A DNA stretch of 23,433 nucleotides from the IMG/VR virus record IMGVR_UViG_3300010153_005122, positions 1 to 23,433 of that record. One strand, written 5' to 3'. Shown piece by piece: positions 5,770 through 23,325 of this stretch. The position numbers and the translations under genes were made by a program. The DNA is from a virus. The notes under the pieces were generated by a model that had not been told where the DNA came from, searched no databases, and saw only the letters and a list, made by a program, of their open reading frames with translations. Each line of letters starts with the position of its first letter. Within the stretch, counting starts at the first letter, position 1.

Positions 5770-6021
5770 TTATATAAACTTATGCCTTATCTTTGAAATA
5801 ATTGCAAGAGTAGTGCTTATTATTGGTATCATTTCAAGTAAATCTATCCCATAAAGTAGAAAATCTAACACAATGTTCTTACCAAACAGATATGTGTGTT
5901 CGTGGTCTCCAAAAAAACATTCTGCTGCGGTAATAGTGTGTGGTATCTGTAAATATAGTATAATAGCAGTCACAATCATGCTTTCTGTTATATGTCTTTC
6001 GTACCAGTCGAAAAATCCCAC
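5770..6021 (-). CDS. small membrane protein, two or more helices
   Basis: From GTG 6021 the product is 83 residues, beginning VGFFDWYERHITESMIVTAI. Hydrophobic stretches SMIVTAIILYLQIP and a long C-terminal NIVLDFLLYGIDLLEMIPII...STTLAIISKI suggest two or three membrane helices round a loop with ECFFGDHEH. The frame is open to ATG 6099, which would add 26 residues (including KIIKIVCIF) but overlap the divergent gene. I prefer 6021 because an AT-rich TATA-like tract lies 22-23 nt upstream and no TATA sits right for 6099. Paired head-to-head with the HExxH mini-protein. Function unknown. Confidence 0.5.
   Translation of the reverse strand: MGFFDWYERHITESMIVTAIILYLQIPHTITAAECFFGDHEHTYLFGKNIVLDFLLYGIDLLEMIPIISTTLAIISKIRHKFI
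5773..5778 (-). promoter_or_regulatory. TATA box of the 74-aa minus gene
   Basis: Read on the minus strand, TTTATA is centred 26-27 nt upstream of the ATG at 5749. It lies within the last codons of the next upstream gene. Confidence 0.45.
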
Positions 6022-6037
6022 AAATATACACACAATC

Positions 6038-6049
6038 TTTATTATTTTA
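6038..6049. promoter_or_regulatory. shared divergent TATA tract
   Basis: TTTATTATTTTA is centred 24-25 nt upstream of ATG 6068 on the plus strand and 22-23 nt upstream of GTG 6021 on the minus strand. One AT-rich block could therefore direct both leaderless transcripts. Confidence 0.4.
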
Positions 6050-6067
6050 GTGTTTCTTAGATTTTGT

Positions 6068-6301
6068 ATGGTATCAGTAGATTTTAGTATGTTTGGCAAA
6101 GGTGAGGCAGGAATATACTATCCTAATAGTGGAAGGGTGTTAATTTATCTCAATAATCACGAATCCCTGACAGATATATTAAAAACAGTGCAGCACGAAC
6201 TTATTCATGTTGCAATAGAAGAATGTGATATAGAAATGGATGAGGATCAGGAAGAAAAATTGATATTTTTTATGGCTTGGACAGATGAATTTTTGGTATA
6301 A
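6068..6301 (+). CDS. 77-aa HExxH metalloprotease-like mini-protein
   Basis: Residues 13-30 form beta strands (EAGIYYPNSGRVLIYLNN). The helix TDILKTVQHELIHVAIEECD holds a clear zincin motif, H43-E44-L-I-H47, with acidic residues after it. Length is far below a typical zinc peptidase, so this is a minimal metallopeptidase-like domain (compare SprT/ImmA-type cores) with the third ligand probably within the Glu-rich tail. I chose ATG 6068, not upstream ATG 5873, because of the TATA tract 25 nt before it; the upstream extension also overlaps the opposite membrane gene. Activity is inferred from the motif. Confidence 0.65.
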   Translation: MVSVDFSMFGKGEAGIYYPNSGRVLIYLNNHESLTDILKTVQHELIHVAIEECDIEMDEDQEEKLIFFMAWTDEFLV

Positions 6302-8306: not shown

Positions 8307-8434
8307 TTTATATACACCGCATTAACATGGTCTTTGTAACAAAGGTCACAGTCTATCTTCTCATACTGACTAGAGCATGGGTCTCCATACCCACACTCAA
8401 ATCGTATGCCACATGTTCTACACGTATGGTTCAT
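8303..8434 (-). CDS. 43-aa zinc-finger protein
   Basis: HTCRTCGIRFECGYGDPC then DCDLCYKDH: C5, C8, C14, C20, C29 and C32 plus H36. The outer CxxC pairs fit a zinc ribbon, with two extra Cys. The ATG overlaps the stop of the VWA gene (ATGA) and its own stop overlaps the next start, so it is embedded in the operon. Function unknown. Confidence 0.6.
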   Translation of the reverse strand: MNHTCRTCGIRFECGYGDPCSSQYEKIDCDLCYKDHVNAVYIK

Positions 8435-10371
8435 TTCATACTGTCCTTTACTGCTCGTTTGAACTCCTTACGTATGAAGTTAGGCACACCATCTATCGGA
8501 ACCTTTAGGAAGTCATTACCAAATATCTTTTTGAGTGTTTCATCATAGTGATCGTAGGTTGTTATCATCAGTGGCTTGATAATCATATTAGGATTTGCTG
8601 TCTTTATTTTCCTGTATGTTTTACCTGCCTGTGCTGCTAGTGTTACATGACTTGTTCTCTCTGCACATTGAGGCACACCATCAGTCAGATAGATCATAAG
8701 CTTTTTCTTTCCTTTCATTTTATTCAATGCCTCTGCACAATAGACTAATGATATGCTTGTCGGAGTAAGCATGTGATACCTATCAAACCCTATCTTGTCA
8801 CATTGTTTCTCGCTATTTATTTCCAAGATACCTGTCTTACGATCTGTTTCACTTCCACCGCCATAACAAACTGCCTTCATATCTATTGTTGGTATGTTTG
8901 ACACTGATCTAAACATAGTTGAGGTTATGTTTTTACATATCTGTAGCTTGTCTCCCTCTCTCATAGAGCCTGAACAATCAACCGCAATTAATATGGAAGT
9001 GCCTTCGACTTTCTTACTGCTTATGTAGAACTCGTTGCCACCTTTCTTTACCTGTTCAAGGAATGATTCTATATCTATGTCATCCCCTTCATCAGATAGT
9101 TTTGGCTTTGCCTTTTGTTTTAACGTAGTGAATGTTCTACGTATCTCTGCTACTGCATCATTATATACGGTTGCTTTCTCCATTGAATGGTAACTATTAG
9201 CAGTGTTTAGCGGTTCAACATTCATACTTATAGGTGGTGCTGGCTGTGAACCATGTAATGATTTCATATCCTGTATGTCTTTTCCTTTCTTTCCTTTCTC
9301 TTTACTAGGATCAGTCTTGTTCATCTTATCTTCTATTGCAGTTAGTTGTTTGTCAGTAGGAGTATAGCCATTGGAGTGTGATTCTTCTATGGTATTCTTA
9401 TTCATACTTTCAGTTCCTTCGGCATCTACGTCTCTTCTATCCTGATAGATTTTTCTTTCTGCTTTGTTAACTTCATGGTCTGCATCCATTAGTTCTGCCT
9501 GTAGCTTATTGTATTCTTCTCTATCTTCTCCTTGCAATTCAGACTTGTGTTTATTAGGTGTCTCTTCTATTAGTTTGTCTATTGCATTTGATATCTTATC
9601 GAACTCTTTCTTCCTATCCTTACTTTCTGCATTATTATTCTTCTCTTTCTCATCTTTCTTTTCATTTAGTATCTTGATACGTTCCAAGATATAATGTCCA
9701 AGACTACCGTCAAGCCAGTCATGAAATACCTTATGAATACCTCTTACAGTAGTACACACAGACTGTTCGAATATCTCATTGGTCTCTTTCTTATGTACCT
9801 TTGGTATCAAGTCATCTCTAAAGAATCTCTTCGCCAATACGTATGCATGTATCTCTCCCATCTTAGGTTTGTATGTCTCGCCATCTATGTTCCATTCAAG
9901 ACCTGCATTTCTACACATGTTATTGTATGCACGCTTTCTTCCCATGAATATCTCGCCATCGATAGACTCTATTCTTATGTCCTCGATTATATTCATAGCA
10001 TCTCTGCATACTGTCTGAGTTATGTTGTCAGCTAGCCTACCTTTAGAATCAGTAGGAACATTCTTGTCATACCAATTAGTAATCATACCCTTGAATGGTT
10101 TCCAGAACTGAGAGTCTAGGCTACCCTCTCTAACATGAGATAGTTCATGGTCAAGACCTGCCCTTACAGGTATGCTGCCGTTCAACTCTATCCTATATCC
10201 TGAACCTCTTGTCTTCATGGCACAGTTATTTGGATAGGTTAAGTTGTATGAGACCTGAATCTTTGAGTTTACCATATCAGATACCAGTTTGATTTTCTTA
10301 TCGTTGTATGATTGTTCTTCCTCTACCTCTTTGTTCAAATCATACTGGTCTGTTATTCTATTGTTGGTCAA
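8431..10371 (-). CDS. CobT-like VWA-domain protein with HExxH N-terminus
   Basis: 646 residues. The N-terminal domain has a zincin-like RAGLDHELSHVREG (H75-E-L-S-H79) and NIIEDIRIES (127-136), the pair seen in CobT/DUF2201-type VWA proteins. Residues about 230-370 are a highly charged linker. The VWA domain (about 455-640) has a full MIDAS: DCSGS (465-469), Thr in LTPTS (536-540) and LTDGVP (562-567). Members of this class work with MoxR/CobS AAA+ ATPases to remodel a target or insert a metal; the ATPase lies just upstream. I found no cobalamin-pathway gene, so a cobaltochelatase role is not supported. The start is TTG 10371, overlapping the upstream stop (TTGA). The target may be viral or host; unknown. 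Confidence 0.85.
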   Translation of the reverse strand: MTNNRITDQYDLNKEVEEEQSYNDKKIKLVSDMVNSKIQVSYNLTYPNNCAMKTRGSGYRIELNGSIPVRAGLDHELSHVREGSLDSQFWKPFKGMITNWYDKNVPTDSKGRLADNITQTVCRDAMNIIEDIRIESIDGEIFMGRKRAYNNMCRNAGLEWNIDGETYKPKMGEIHAYVLAKRFFRDDLIPKVHKKETNEIFEQSVCTTVRGIHKVFHDWLDGSLGHYILERIKILNEKKDEKEKNNNAESKDRKKEFDKISNAIDKLIEETPNKHKSELQGEDREEYNKLQAELMDADHEVNKAERKIYQDRRDVDAEGTESMNKNTIEESHSNGYTPTDKQLTAIEDKMNKTDPSKEKGKKGKDIQDMKSLHGSQPAPPISMNVEPLNTANSYHSMEKATVYNDAVAEIRRTFTTLKQKAKPKLSDEGDDIDIESFLEQVKKGGNEFYISSKKVEGTSILIAVDCSGSMREGDKLQICKNITSTMFRSVSNIPTIDMKAVCYGGGSETDRKTGILEINSEKQCDKIGFDRYHMLTPTSISLVYCAEALNKMKGKKKLMIYLTDGVPQCAERTSHVTLAAQAGKTYRKIKTANPNMIIKPLMITTYDHYDETLKKIFGNDFLKVPIDGVPNFIRKEFKRAVKDSMK

Positions 10372-10517
10372 TCTAAATCGTACCTCATATCCTCATGGTC
10401 TGCTTGATGTTCACATAGCATATCATTTGCATAGTCTTCCAGCCAATCCTGATAGAATCTCTCCACTATATTATTCCAGAAGAATAGTTTGATATAAAAG
10501 GAGGGGGAATGTGCCAT
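10368..10517 (-). CDS. 49-aa linker gene between ATPase and VWA protein
   Basis: MAHSPSFYIKLFFWNNIVER followed by an acidic helix with Cys and His (DMLCEHQADHED). It starts one base after the ATPase stop and its TGA overlaps the VWA TTG start, so all three are co-translated. Aromatic-rich N-terminus (FY, FFW, FY, W) could bind a hydrophobic groove; a small adaptor for the ATPase-VWA pair is a guess from position only. Confidence 0.55.
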   Translation of the reverse strand: MAHSPSFYIKLFFWNNIVERFYQDWLEDYANDMLCEHQADHEDMRYDLD

Positions 10518-10518
10518 A

Positions 10519-11685
10519 CTATGCACCGATTCCAAAGACATCCTCTAATAGTTTAGAGACTGCCTTGCGTTCCTCGTCACTATCAAGCTTATGATTTATG
10601 ACTGTTGTATGCAATACTCTTGATAACGTATCATAGTATTCATCGCTGCAACCACCATGTCCATCGTCAAAGTCTTTACCCTTACTGAACATACGTAGGA
10701 CATCAACGAACTGCTTGACATCCCTAACAGATAGACTGTATGATATGTCTCCTTGTACCCTAAGATTTCTCATGTTTTCACATAGAGTAATGATCTTTGA
10801 CTTAAGGTCAGTCACTATTTTGTCACGCATAGGCTGAGGGATGGTATCGATATCCCATGTTACTGCGTTATCTAACTGTGCTTGCAAGTCATGCTTCCAT
10901 ACTCTACCAGTAAACCTTGACTTCAAGTCCTCGTTAAGAGTATTGACACCGCTGTATGATACAGGATTCATGGCTGCAACTATTGATAACTTGCAGTCTT
11001 CTTTCAATCTATACAGTTTACCATTGACATAGATTGATTGTCTTTCATCTAGTACAGGATTCAATCTCTTTTGCAACTCATTATCCAGTGCGTTTATCTC
11101 GTCTAGGAATATGACTGCATGACCAAAGTGATTGGCTAACTCTATTGCGGTAGGTATGATTCCAAGTTGGAAGTAACTACCATTCTCATCGACATGAGTT
11201 CTACCCTCTAGGTCTGTCATTCTAGTACCTGATGAACAGGACAATGTTATGCATGGTATGCTGTTCTCTAAACATATGTCATTGATTAACAATGTCTTAC
11301 CCATACCTTTCTCACTCTCTATGAGATACGGTTTTGCATATGCTTTGTCTGCCATAATAAATGACTCTAGTTCTCTTGCCTCTCCATCTATCTCTACGTA
11401 TTCAACTCCCCATTTGTGAGGTAGGTATGAATCGTAATCGATAGAGGCGACAGGAACAACCCTGCTTATGTTAGTCTGTGGCACTGGGTCGGCAGTCTTA
11501 CTAGGTGGTACTTGTTGCTTGACCAACTTGTTCACATAGTTGAGTAGGTAATCACTTCTAGCAAATTCTGTTGCTGCTTTCTCCTTATCTTTAATAACAT
11601 TCTTTCTCGAATAGTTATTCCTTGCCCACTCTCTTGCTTCTAGAGTAAGCTCGTATCTTATGTTGTCCATGCTATCGTCTGTCAT
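10519..11685 (-). CDS. MoxR/CobS-like AAA+ ATPase
   Basis: 388 residues. After a helical N-terminus of about 110 residues comes the AAA+ core: Walker A ESEKGMGKTLL (123-133), Walker B HAVIFLDEINAL (189-200), sensor 1 SIVAAMNPV (234-242) and an Arg-finger region LNEDLKSRF (250-258). DLEGRTHVDENGSYFQLGII is the helix-2 insert region typical of the MoxR clade. Such ATPases form hexameric rings that act on substrates together with a VWA partner (CobS-CobT, CbbQ-CbbO, NorQ-NorD). The VWA partner is encoded 148 nt downstream. Annotation pipelines may call this cobS; there is no other sign of cobalamin synthesis. In a virus, maturation or disassembly of a protein assembly is an open possibility. Confidence 0.88.
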   Translation of the reverse strand: MTDDSMDNIRYELTLEAREWARNNYSRKNVIKDKEKAATEFARSDYLLNYVNKLVKQQVPPSKTADPVPQTNISRVVPVASIDYDSYLPHKWGVEYVEIDGEARELESFIMADKAYAKPYLIESEKGMGKTLLINDICLENSIPCITLSCSSGTRMTDLEGRTHVDENGSYFQLGIIPTAIELANHFGHAVIFLDEINALDNELQKRLNPVLDERQSIYVNGKLYRLKEDCKLSIVAAMNPVSYSGVNTLNEDLKSRFTGRVWKHDLQAQLDNAVTWDIDTIPQPMRDKIVTDLKSKIITLCENMRNLRVQGDISYSLSVRDVKQFVDVLRMFSKGKDFDDGHGGCSDEYYDTLSRVLHTTVINHKLDSDEERKAVSKLLEDVFGIGA

Positions 11686-11688
11686 ATC

Positions 11689-11994
11689 TTATACGTTAGA
11701 CTTGTAGTCAAGTTCACAAAGAGAGCATTTCTTAGTAGTCTTAAAGTATGCTTCGAATGTTTTCTTACATACATGACACTTTGCATTGTGTTTCTTACTA
11801 TCCTTGGCACGCTCTGCATCTATTGCATGAAGCCTATCAATTTCTATCTTCAAGTCAGTACCGTATGCGTTAGCCAACTCTTCCTCGTTGTCTATGTATC
11901 TGTACTTGTACTCTACTTTCTTTGGCTTGTCTTCCATAGTTATAGCGTGCTTGTCCAATAACCTATTGAACATATCTTCAGGAGATTCAGACAT
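11689..11994 (-). CDS. 101-aa protein with C-terminal zinc ribbon
   Basis: An acidic helical N-terminus (MSESPEDMFNRLLDKHAITM) leads to a coiled-coil-like stretch and a C-terminal ribbon AKCHVCKKTFEAYFKTTKKC followed by SLC: two CxxC pairs (C73/C76 and C90/C93). It lies directly upstream of the ATPase gene with 3 nt between them, so it may be a partner. The ATG overlaps the preceding stop by 8 nt. No family recognised. Confidence 0.65.
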   Translation of the reverse strand: MSESPEDMFNRLLDKHAITMEDKPKKVEYKYRYIDNEEELANAYGTDLKIEIDRLHAIDAERAKDSKKHNAKCHVCKKTFEAYFKTTKKCSLCELDYKSNV

Positions 11995-13377: not shown

Positions 13378-13825
13378 CTTGTGACCAAGAACAATAACTA
13401 CACTATAACAATAATACCTATACACCCAATATAAGCGTATCTAACTGTATTATATATCCTATGTTTGATTCCTGATACATAGGCTAGTATACCATATATA
13501 GGCACAGCATAATATAAACCTAACTATTATCTATACAGGTATATACTATGGGCACAGTCAGGCACGAGTCCTATATACTATTCTATATACTATATATATC
13601 TATATACTATCTACTATCTATTATTTACTATATAGTGTACATATTCTATATACTATATAACCTCGTTAGTACCTATATAGGCTAGTATTATACTATATAG
13701 ATAGGAAGGATCCCCCCAAATTATTTCCCTATATAGTATATAGGCTAGGTTAGTATATAGTATTATAGAGTATCTAGATATTTAATTTTCTATATAGTGT
13801 ACAAAAAATAAGGGAGAGGATAGGA
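13378..13825. other. gene-free, repeat-rich AT tract (candidate origin/control region)
   Basis: About 450 bases without a convincing gene. TATATACTAT-type words recur on both strands between 13535 and 13760. ATAGGCTAG occurs three times (13479-13487, 13676-13684, 13739-13747), GGCAC three times (13501, 13551, 13561), and GTGTACA twice (13635-13641, 13797-13803). CTATATAGTATATAG (13729-13743) is near-palindromic. A run GGATCCCCCC (13708-13717) breaks the AT content. The tract separates two minus-strand operons. Easily melted DNA with iterated motifs near operon heads is what an origin or phage control region looks like, but no initiator site is identifiable. A hydrophobic 35-codon GTG frame at 13398-13505 (minus) was considered weak. 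Confidence 0.5.
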
Positions 13826-17826: not shown

Positions 17827-19698
17827 TTGGGTTTTACTGATACATTTAAAAATATAGCAAAGTCGCTTAGTTTTAGCAACAAGTCCTATACTGAGAACGT
17901 AGTCAGACCTTCTATGGCACAGCCTTATATGGCTACCGACACAGGTGCCAAACTACCTATTTTCCCATTCCCACTCATTATGATTTATGAGTTGGCTGAC
18001 AATATTGATGCCTTGCGTATTCCTATAGAGACTCTTAACAGAGAGATGTTTAAGAACGGATTTGAGGTTGTAGAAAGATTCAAGTTCAAATGCAATACAT
18101 GTAGCAAAGAGTTTCAAACAGCACCAGAATCATCTGGTTCAATACAGAATGACGATGTAGTATTGGAATGTGACTCATGTGGATCTAAAGACCTAAGAAG
18201 ACCAGACCCGTTAAGAAGAAAAATACTTGATGACATGTTGTACAACCCTGTAAACGGAAACAACCAGACAGTAGAGGATCTTTCAAGACAGTTGGAAAGA
18301 GACTTGGAAATTGCAGACAACGCTTACCTTCTTCTTCTCAAGAACTATTTCATTGATGATGCAACAGGAAAGATTGACCATCAGAAAAGTGAAATTAAAG
18401 AGATGATCAGAATTGATCCTCCACAAGTTGCCATGATTGCAGACAGTGACGGCAAGATTGGATATGATGACAAGAGACAGAAAATATACGTCTGTCCTAG
18501 ATTTGAACACAGAGGCACTCGTCTTTACGAGCCAACTTGTCCTAAGTGCGGTGCTGAGGCACTAAAGGCAGTAATAGAAGTAAACTCAGTATACTCTGTA
18601 GGCATTCCACAGCCAAAAAGAGTCATTTATGCAGAAGGTGAAATCATATGGAAAGCAGGAAAATACAGACCTGCACTTATCTATGGATATTCTCCTATAT
18701 TTGCCGTATGGTCTAAAGCCATGTCACTGTCACACATGGATGAGTACATACGAAAGTACTTTGACAAGATGAGACCTCCAAGAGGATTGCTGTTAATTGC
18801 CTCTCGTAACTACGAGACATTTAGAAAGTCATGGGATATGCTTGAACAAAAGGCAACCGAAGACCCTTACATGATACATCCACTTATGGTAGAGTCAGAA
18901 CGTGGAAACAAAAACATGGCACAGTGGCTAGACTTTACAGGATCACTTCAAGAATTACAGTTTATTGAAATTAGAAAGGAACTAAGACAGATAATTGGTG
19001 CAATTTATGGCGTACTTCCGTTATACTATGGTGAAATGGTAGGCGGATGGTCACAGGAAGGACTGCAAGTTACAATTACAAACAGGGCAGTCAAATGGGG
19101 TCAGGATGTCATGTACAAGTCATTCTTTAGAAAAATTGCAGAGGCAGTTGGTATTGATGACTGGGATCTCAAGCTTGTACAGGGTGAAGAGAATGACAAA
19201 CTAGCAGAACTGCAAAGAGAAGGCGTAGAAATACAAAACATGTCTTTGTTGCAACAAATGGGATTTGATGTCTCCATGTCACATAACGGAGAGTTCAAAG
19301 TATCAAAAGACCCTGTAAATCAGCCAGCACTGCCAGACAACAGCGGTGTAAACGGAAGAGGAAGAAGTGAAGCAGCACCAGAAGAAAACAGACAAAAGTT
19401 TGAAGGCTCTCCAATGCAGACAAGACCGTCAGACACGGGAGGAATTGCACAGGGAAGTCCTTCATCTGGAAGCGGAACATCACTAAGTCAGAAGAACTTT
19501 CCTGACGGCATTACTCCTGCAAACTTTACAGTAATCAAAAAGACATTACAAACAGCAGTAGACTTTGGATGGAACAAGACAAAAACCATAGAAGAAATAA
19601 GAAAATATGGCGGTCTAACTGTGCGACAAGCAAGAGAACTTGTCAAAAATGAATTTGAACAAATGAGGAGGTGGGAGGATGCTGAAGAGAAAGAGTAA
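17827..19698 (+). CDS. portal protein with zinc-ribbon inserts
   Basis: 623 residues. The portal is the dodecameric ring through which DNA enters the head. Indicators: an N-terminal extension, a core with PIETLNREMFKNGFEVV, RRKILDDMLYNPVNGNN, a helix DLSRQLERDLEIADNAYLLL, then the typical helical stem region LQFIEIRKELRQIIGAIYGV with PLYYGEMVGGWSQEG, and NRAVKWGQDVMYKSFF. Two zinc inserts break the core: C89/C92 with C115/C118, and C223 plus H228 with C238/C241; such ribbons are absent from most bacterial portals. Residues about 490-560 are low-complexity; the C-terminal 60 residues form a small helical domain. TTG start, leaderless. The assignment is by overall pattern and by the prohead protease downstream. 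Confidence 0.8.
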   Translation: MGFTDTFKNIAKSLSFSNKSYTENVVRPSMAQPYMATDTGAKLPIFPFPLIMIYELADNIDALRIPIETLNREMFKNGFEVVERFKFKCNTCSKEFQTAPESSGSIQNDDVVLECDSCGSKDLRRPDPLRRKILDDMLYNPVNGNNQTVEDLSRQLERDLEIADNAYLLLLKNYFIDDATGKIDHQKSEIKEMIRIDPPQVAMIADSDGKIGYDDKRQKIYVCPRFEHRGTRLYEPTCPKCGAEALKAVIEVNSVYSVGIPQPKRVIYAEGEIIWKAGKYRPALIYGYSPIFAVWSKAMSLSHMDEYIRKYFDKMRPPRGLLLIASRNYETFRKSWDMLEQKATEDPYMIHPLMVESERGNKNMAQWLDFTGSLQELQFIEIRKELRQIIGAIYGVLPLYYGEMVGGWSQEGLQVTITNRAVKWGQDVMYKSFFRKIAEAVGIDDWDLKLVQGEENDKLAELQREGVEIQNMSLLQQMGFDVSMSHNGEFKVSKDPVNQPALPDNSGVNGRGRSEAAPEENRQKFEGSPMQTRPSDTGGIAQGSPSSGSGTSLSQKNFPDGITPANFTVIKKTLQTAVDFGWNKTKTIEEIRKYGGLTVRQARELVKNEFEQMRRWEDAEEKE

Positions 19699-21912: not shown

Positions 21913-23325
21913 ATGACAGAAGACAATTTATATTTTACTAAATTCGTAACCAAAAGTTTGCAGCCAATTAATTCTGATGACAGATATTTTGAGGGTTATC
22001 TTACTGTTCAGGTAAAAGACAAGCAAGGTGAAGTTACAATAGTAGACGAGTTATACAAAGTTCTTCCTGTTTGGATGGACAGAGGTGCTCCTATCTCTGA
22101 CACACACTCAAACAGAATTATTGGTAAAGGAATCAATTATTCCAAATCTTCGTATGTAGATAAAGACGGATCTGAATATCCTGCAATTAAAATTACTGGC
22201 AAGATTCACAAGAACTATGAATTGGACAATGAAATATGGAACAAGATTAAATCAGGAGAATACAAAGGCTTGTCATTCGGTGGTGCTACAAGAACAAACA
22301 GAGAACCAATCGTAATGAAAGACGGATCTATTGCTTATGCATTAAAAGAATTAGAACATTATGAAGTTGCAGTATGTAAAGACCCTGCTGTACCATTGGC
22401 ATTAATCACTGATCATAACAATGTTGCAAAGGCTATGGCTGAAAAAACAGAGGACAGAGGAGATGGCAAGATGGTAATCAAATGCAGCAAGTTTGGATGT
22501 TATGTCAAGAAAGATTCACTGATAAAAATAGAAGACGAAGATGATAAGAATACAAAGGCTGAGGTTTTAGACGAATGGAAGAATGATGACAATGATCATG
22601 GTGAGGATAAAGTCAAAAAAACAAAACAGTTAGATCCAGACCCAACAAATACAGATCCAGAACAAATAATGAATAGAGCAAAAGTTGTAGGAAGAAGACA
22701 AGACATATACCAATCAGCATCACTTGACGATCAATGTTTGTTGACTCTTGTTGAAAATATTGCAAAAACAGATTTAAGTAAATACAGATCATTTGAAGCA
22801 AAAGTACAAGCATTAGTGAATGAGGGTTATGCCAAAGAAAATGCAGAAAACATTGTAGGCTCATTCGTAAAAGGTGAAAAGAATAAAGATGAAGGTGGTG
22901 GCATGATGAGTGCTGATACAGAGGGAGCAGTTAACACACGTTATAACAAGCCAATAATAGAGGAAGATGTAAAAAAACAGTTTAAAGAGATTGAACAAGA
23001 GGCAGGAACAGAATTTTCAAACGCAGGTGGAGATAAAGTCGATTTGCATAATCAAGATTCGCCTGGAAAAGAAATAGACAAGACATTCAGCGGTGGTGTA
23101 AGACATTCAGGCAAAGAATATGATACTAATCAAGAATCTACACAAGTAAGTGAGGTTAAAAACGAAGAGGAAAACTCAGGAGTAGATTCACATCATAATT
23201 TGTATAACCAAGACGAGTCTACAGGAATAGGAGAGGATGAAAAAGAATTGCGTAAGATTACAGGCAAGACCAAAAGCATCAAGTTGGAATCTAGCATGTT
23301 GATAAATAGATTAAGAGATTTATAA
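21913..23325 (+). CDS. prohead maturation protease, XkdF-like, with long scaffold-like tail
   Basis: 470 residues. The first 170 are the protease: DRYFEGYLTVQVKDKQGEVT start, ISDTHSNRIIGKG with His65, KGLSFGGATRT with Ser121, and ELEHYEVAVCKDPAVPLALI with His149. These are the ordered His...Ser...(E)xxEVxVxxxPA landmarks of the herpes-assemblin-like phage proteases (HK97 gp4/XkdF group), which cleave scaffold and capsid proteins during head maturation. Residues about 170-470 are polar and acidic, with a CSKFGCYVKK cluster near 188-197, and end KLESSMLINRLRDL; a fused scaffold domain is likely. Usual order is protease then major capsid protein; the next frame is cut by the window edge. Confidence 0.82.
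   Translation: MTEDNLYFTKFVTKSLQPINSDDRYFEGYLTVQVKDKQGEVTIVDELYKVLPVWMDRGAPISDTHSNRIIGKGINYSKSSYVDKDGSEYPAIKITGKIHKNYELDNEIWNKIKSGEYKGLSFGGATRTNREPIVMKDGSIAYALKELEHYEVAVCKDPAVPLALITDHNNVAKAMAEKTEDRGDGKMVIKCSKFGCYVKKDSLIKIEDEDDKNTKAEVLDEWKNDDNDHGEDKVKKTKQLDPDPTNTDPEQIMNRAKVVGRRQDIYQSASLDDQCLLTLVENIAKTDLSKYRSFEAKVQALVNEGYAKENAENIVGSFVKGEKNKDEGGGMMSADTEGAVNTRYNKPIIEEDVKKQFKEIEQEAGTEFSNAGGDKVDLHNQDSPGKEIDKTFSGGVRHSGKEYDTNQESTQVSEVKNEEENSGVDSHHNLYNQDESTGIGEDEKELRKITGKTKSIKLESSMLINRLRDL

Follow-up and report, generated by a model that had tools for sequence, protein, structure and literature searches.

A MoxR-type ATPase and a zincin-like VWA protein as a candidate two-component protease machine in a fragment of an archaeal tailed virus

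The window analysed here is the whole of a 23,433-base IMG/VR virus record (IMGVR_UViG_3300010153_005122), a fragment of an archaeal tailed virus that encodes, on its minus strand, a MoxR-type AAA+ ATPase and a protein with a C-terminal VWA domain. We favour, with modest confidence, the view that the pair is a two-component viral AAA+ metalloprotease-like machine, encoded outside the structural block and most likely early, in which the VWA protein would cleave a client. The ATPase (388 aa, 10519..11685; assigned from motifs, Pfam and a tree) and the VWA protein (646 aa with a TTG start, 8431..10371; from the open reading frame (ORF), alignment and a model) flank a gene for an aromatic and acidic 49-aa protein (10368..10517; from ORF junctions and relatives). 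All three genes lie between MCM and RadA genes, both recognised by family-model annotation, and genes for a portal and a prohead-protease-like protein; the nearest matches of the portal are in archaeal tailed viruses, e.g., HCTV-5 and HVTV-1. A sequence-only reading of this DNA had recognised the MoxR-type ATPase/VWA pair on this strand, which the coordinates, Pfam and a fold match bear out. It had also listed the Walker A/B, sensor 1, DCSGS, HELSH and EDIRIE motifs, all of which are present with conserved key residues, but missed that HELSH and EDIRIE carry a zincin metallopeptidase signature. That signature shifts the mechanism from chaperoning or metal insertion towards proteolysis.

The N-terminal metallopeptidase-like domain of the VWA protein (residues 1–240, 9652..10371, minus strand) was delimited with an AlphaFold2 model and a profile match. 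It contains HELSH at residues 75–79 (10135..10149), a predicted zinc-binding and catalytic HExxH, and, by alignment, EDIRIE at residues 130–135 (9967..9984), where E130 is the predicted third zinc ligand. An HExxH motif followed by a downstream Glu is the signature of zincin metallopeptidases, and by their sequence HELSH and EDIRIE read as this HExxH...E signature. We aligned 36 diverse marine VWA proteins with ~22% identity to that of the window, and the invariant columns were H75, E76, H79, N127, E130, D131, R133, E135, R182, the metal-ion-dependent adhesion site (MIDAS) and a few others. The HExxH...E and ED.R.E positions were as invariant as the MIDAS (36/36), the invariant residues of which were D465, S467, S469, T536 and D564. 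Across relatives, the third-ligand Glu lies 35–88 residues past the first His of HExxH. The MIDAS motif DCSGS (residues 465–469, 8965..8979, with T536 and D564 as further MIDAS positions; placed by alignment) belongs to the C-terminal VWA domain (residues ~455–646, 8434..9009), which was delimited with Foldseek. The Pfam VWA match was sub-threshold (E about 0.01); the fold is nevertheless clear because the best Foldseek match was the NorD VWA domain in the NorQ–NorD complex (E = 2e-9).

AlphaFold2 modelled the full-length VWA protein with a predicted local distance difference test (pLDDT) score of 80, rising to 87 for residues 1–240 (predicted template modelling score 0.84). The order of elements in the modelled N-domain is a helix, three strands, the HExxH helix and a later helix carrying E130, which in the model is the usual zincin layout. 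Profiles of the marine and phage N-domains matched each other (97.9%, E = 4.8e-13), and the alignment kept the two motifs in register. Two results weigh against a peptidase assignment: a Foldseek search of the PDB with the N-domain gave no significant match (best E = 1.1), and no Pfam or NCBIfam peptidase model matched the VWA protein. The non-significant top Foldseek matches include the zincins MATCAP, BACCAC_01431, selecase, SPRTN and BlaR1 (E of 1 or more). Because Foldseek found no significant solved relative, the predicted fold class is probably zincin but is not proven. DUF2201_N (PF13203) was also tried and was rejected, with no match.

The ATPase matched Pfam AAA_5 (E = 1.1e-14), and its Walker A (K126–T131), Walker B (D195–E196) and sensor-1 (N240) residues were kept across 33 relatives; R257 is probably the Arg finger, and R321 is a sensor-2-like residue. 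The nearest single-ring PDB proteins to its profile were CbbQ (90.8 and 73.9 bits) and NorQ (73.3 bits), with CobS at 42.3 bits. NorQ/NorD and CbbQ/CbbO are therefore the nearest solved systems in ATPase sequence and, through NorD, in VWA fold, and they provide a model for docking of the ring on the MIDAS. These likenesses would suit a non-proteolytic remodeller or metal inserter of the CbbQO/NorQD type, which would remodel a host or viral enzyme while the HExxH domain only bound metal or docked the client. We consider this unlikely, since H75, E76, H79 and E130 are all invariant and metal binding alone would not need the catalytic E76. Moreover, the ATPase fell outside CbbQ/NorQ in a tree despite its best single-ring sequence match, and no gene for Rubisco or NO reductase was recognised in the window. 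The tree held 43 sequences, the HVTV-1, Hanem and Nitrosopelagicus ATPases having dropped out. In it, the marine ATPases and one Nitrosotalea sequence formed a supported group (100/99), so that the marine proteins appear as a clade of their own among the sequences used; several phage branches were long, and only the exclusion of CobS is to be leaned on. Specifically, forcing the marine ATPases and CobS into one clade was rejected by the approximately unbiased test (p-AU 0.00135).

Viral pairs of this kind have been read as cobaltochelatase subunits. Liu et al. 2021 treated haloviral pairs as CobST and called the 'peptidase' label of cyanophage cobT a mistake (PMC8651126). Applied to the window, this would make the pair a viral CobST that borrows a host CobN to insert cobalt into corrin, and the top viral family match of the ATPase, PHROG 249 'porphyrin biosynthesis' (5.3e-13), is in its favour. 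Neither the CobS model TIGR01650 nor the CobT model PF06213 matched the window proteins, and CobN was found in none of 18 virus records of relatives and none of 41 genomes of the likely host family, where controls were positive. Thaumarchaeota have been reported to lack CobNST (PMC4303638). CobS/CobT (PDB 9ujv, 9uka) likewise combine a MoxR-type AAA+ protein with a MIDAS-VWA protein, and the CobT N-domain keeps the ExxR.E helix, but CobT has no HExxH (absent from 6/6 cellular sequences), the chelatase requires CobN, and the window ATPase lies outside the CobS clade. Because cellular CobT lacks HExxH, grouping with CobS was rejected and CobN was not found, we conclude that the pair is not a cobaltochelatase and does not insert cobalt; cobalt insertion with a borrowed CobN is very improbable. 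The sequence-only reading had warned that cobS/cobT labels would mislead here and that no cobalamin gene was nearby. Both statements held: none was recognised among the annotated window proteins, and the pattern which that reading had set against its own view, nesting in CobS/CobT together with CobN, did not appear. A demand for vitamin B12 linked to ribonucleotide reductase was rejected as well, with no ribonucleotide reductase found in the records of the 18 relatives.

The HExxH...E signature was present in HVTV-1 gp57, HHTV-2 gp2 (a separate ORF, the VWA protein being gp3), Cantare gp56, the cyanophage 'peptidase' proteins of Syn33 and P-SSM7, and S-CREM1. The HExxH motif was further found in ICP2, where a different residue takes the place of the third-ligand Glu, and in BlueNGold, BS162P1, Lidong, Hanem and DSL-LC01; the viruses with the signature include actinophages and a Bacteroides phage. 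Every phage or halovirus pair with a VWA protein that was tested carried the motif in the partner, and two E. coli phage-like plasmids carry it as HEVAH. For Snenia, Mithridates, Tunturi_4, Pumpernickel and R22Y an ATPase matched, but the stretch read contained no VWA partner of this kind. The haloarchaeal tailed-virus pairs (HVTV-1 gp59/57, HHTV-2 gp10/2/3 and Hardycor1; PMC8651126, PMC7911831), published as cobaltochelatase subunits, come from viruses with a portal related to that of the window, although the pairs are very distant (25.7% over half of the ATPase in the case of HHTV-2, and no tblastn match for the VWA protein). In HVTV-1, too, a small gene separates the ATPase and VWA genes; by eye it does not resemble that of the window.

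Loss of the site was also observed. A branch of VWA proteins encoded by ammonia-oxidising archaea (AOA; L195–L198, in archaeal genomes G163, G186, G113 and G249) has HExxH replaced, with HELAH aligning to RILSK, while keeping a DESSS or DESGS MIDAS. Since the architecture persists elsewhere without HExxH, full conservation of the motif in the marine viruses indicates selection for the site. A MoxR-VWA pair on an Acinetobacter baumannii plasmid (pV_JAB144, L101) has a degenerate QEVAK in place of HExxH. Bacterial genome contigs with relatives (L183–L191) came from Gammaproteobacteria, Desulfuromonadales, Endozoicomonas and others; the four that were read (L183, L187, L189 and L190), cellular or prophage contigs, encode VWA proteins of the HExxH type, preceded by a MoxR ATPase. 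When the profile of the marine N-domain was compared directly with cellular CobT, nothing matched. A weak CobT match of the phage N-domains (33%, E = 4.6e-4) covered the N.LED.RIE helix, left HExxH without a counterpart and suggests homology of the CobT and phage N-domains. Because the viral proteins keep HExxH...E, CobT has lost it and the host family has no detectable CobN, the peptidase reading of Iyer et al. 2021 is favoured over a B12 chelatase (Liu et al. 2021), and the HExxH pattern suggests that the cyanophage 'peptidase' label was the one nearer the truth.

In viral contigs, single-protein searches recovered one relative for the VWA protein and none for the ATPase. Relatives were found through the portal clade first (152 relatives in the portal search, of which the best 80 loci, 65–100% identical, were kept) and then by profile searches, which recovered 35 loci for the VWA protein and 34 for the ATPase in viral contigs. 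The ATPase gene was upstream of the VWA gene on the same strand in 38/38 loci, a recurrence of order and strand that makes the pairing more than chance. About half of the pairs abut, and the remainder are up to 3 kb apart with other small genes between.

In the window, the ATPase, 49-aa and VWA genes form one tightly coupled operon. The small ORF has 57 aa from its first ATG (10541) and 49 aa from the ATG that lies 1 nt past the ATPase stop, and its stop codon TGA shares bases with the TTG start codon of the VWA gene (TTGA). Immediately upstream of the ATPase is an ORF for a 101-aa zinc-ribbon-like protein (11689..11994, minus strand), a probable operon member, of which a C-terminal relative adjoins a small-gene relative in another lineage (L079). 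The small protein belongs to a genuine family, with a pattern like LFxWNxxxxRFxxDWLxxYA...D[LM]D and relatives in six more lineages, each on the strand of the pair and within ~4 kb of it. The sequence-only reading had described it as wedged between the two genes and as a possible adaptor. The wedged position and tight coupling stood for the window, but among the six other lineages the gene lies between ATPase and VWA genes only in the one with the weakest match (L121), and a fixed wedge was rejected, given ATPase–VWA gaps of −4 to ~3000 bp. Most pairs have no detectable copy in the stretch covered, so an obligatory adaptor role is unlikely; with other copies elsewhere in the operon, the idea of a dedicated adaptor fared poorly, and the protein is an optional, operon-linked accessory.

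The position of the pair bears on its timing. In 8/8 records with all three genes located, and likewise in the window, the VWA gene sits between the genes for MCM and portal, on the strand opposite the portal; MCM was found in 17/18 large records. Cyanophage pairs have nrdC or a purine gene on one side and the clamp and clamp-loader genes on the other. Neighbours elsewhere are a primase in ICP2, ThyX in Cantare, a DNA polymerase in BS162P1 and dnaE in the plasmids, and the HVTV-1 pair shares a block with genes for thymidylate synthase and a SprT-like protein. An early role is supported because pairs in other viruses adjoin replication and nucleotide genes, and from gene position in many viruses we infer that expression is most likely early in infection.

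The sequence-only reading had suggested a virion-remodelling or host-complex target, of which the former is weakened by the position of the pair outside the structural block and, in phages, beside replication and nucleotide genes. A role as a virion-assembly chaperone or protease was proposed for jumbo phages by Iyer et al. 2021, whose group 2.2 phages pair MoxR with a vWA protein that has a metallopeptidase domain at its N-terminus (PMC7824862), and a role in the tail was reported for ATV (PMC4124505); our fold search recovered ATV ORF892. The jumbo-phage pair (ASV44728/9), likened here by its description, shares with the window a MoxR gene beside a VWA protein with such a domain, but the window has an archaeal host, an ATPase clade of its own, an optional small operon partner and a pair outside the structural block. 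ATV p618/p892 is likewise a MoxR-VWA pair in an archaeal virus, but it is a tail chaperone of an unrelated virus and gave only a weak fold match (rank 29). The strand opposite the portal in all eight records, the replication or nucleotide neighbours in cyanophages, ICP2, Cantare and the phage-like plasmids, and the virus's own prohead-protease-like gene (21913-23325) all argue against virion assembly, which we regard as improbable. The evidence thus favours an early rather than a structural role.

In the metalloprotease-like machine that we favour, the MoxR-type ATPase ring would dock on the MIDAS face of the VWA domain, as NorQ does on NorD, and ATP hydrolysis would remodel a client protein or present it to the VWA protein's own N-terminal zincin domain. 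That domain would cleave the client at the HExxH...E site, to which conservation and the predicted fold layout point as a zinc site. As gene position in many viruses suggests, the client, of host or viral origin, may be a protein connected with takeover or DNA replication, and the 49-aa protein may act as an optional accessory.

The host is likely a marine ammonia-oxidising archaeon, because the nearest cellular pairs and portal relatives are in that family. The nearest cellular copies were on a Candidatus Nitrosopelagicus contig (L182), with an intact pair and cellular-type flanking genes, and in related genomes; a strong match to the VWA protein was found in ~9/250 genomes of the Nitrosopelagicus family, and two genomes of the likely host family contain portal relatives, with 44 and 41% identity. 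Residues ~565–612 of the portal gene product (window 17827-19698) match short segments in ~20 likely-host-family genomes, sometimes in two copies, and by sequence this shared small domain at the portal C-terminus (last ~50 residues) appears to support the host link. L182 and a second AOA contig (L213; archaeal genomes G019 and G183, respectively) have intact ATPase-VWA pairs with HExxH near HFX_2341-like (Cas_APE2256-related) and tetratricopeptide-repeat genes, with no portal or MCM in the stretch read; they are possibly a captured or cellular conflict-type locus.

Other features of the window were also noted. An ORF on the plus strand (5873-6301) contains TVQHELIHVAIEECD and is a candidate second small HExxH protein, perhaps SprT-like; HVTV-1 likewise has a SprT-like gene. 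An AT-rich, largely non-coding stretch at ~13390-13820 has TATATA-type repeats (Tandem Repeats Finder periods 7 and 18 at 13571-13659), lies upstream of the ATPase operon on the operon's strand and is a possible regulatory region or origin. Searches of the window found no RNA families, and promoter and terminator scans were at or under the expectation from shuffled sequence.

Pairs of MoxR and metallopeptidase-VWA proteins were already known, and the interesting part is a wider re-reading of viral cobS/cobT. Tentatively, the viral 'cobS/cobT auxiliary metabolic genes' might be early AAA+ metalloproteases, from which cellular CobST arose by loss of HExxH and recruitment of CobN, while AOA took up viral pairs, some of which lost the site; we offer this as a possibility rather than a preferred account. 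Related viral pairs usually carry vitamin B12 gene labels that are probably wrong, and viral cobS/cobT matches, which are often treated as metabolic genes, would have to be re-annotated. The pair also offers a concrete mutable target (H75, E76, E130, the MIDAS and the Walker motifs) for finding the early-infection targets that tailed viruses cleave or remodel.

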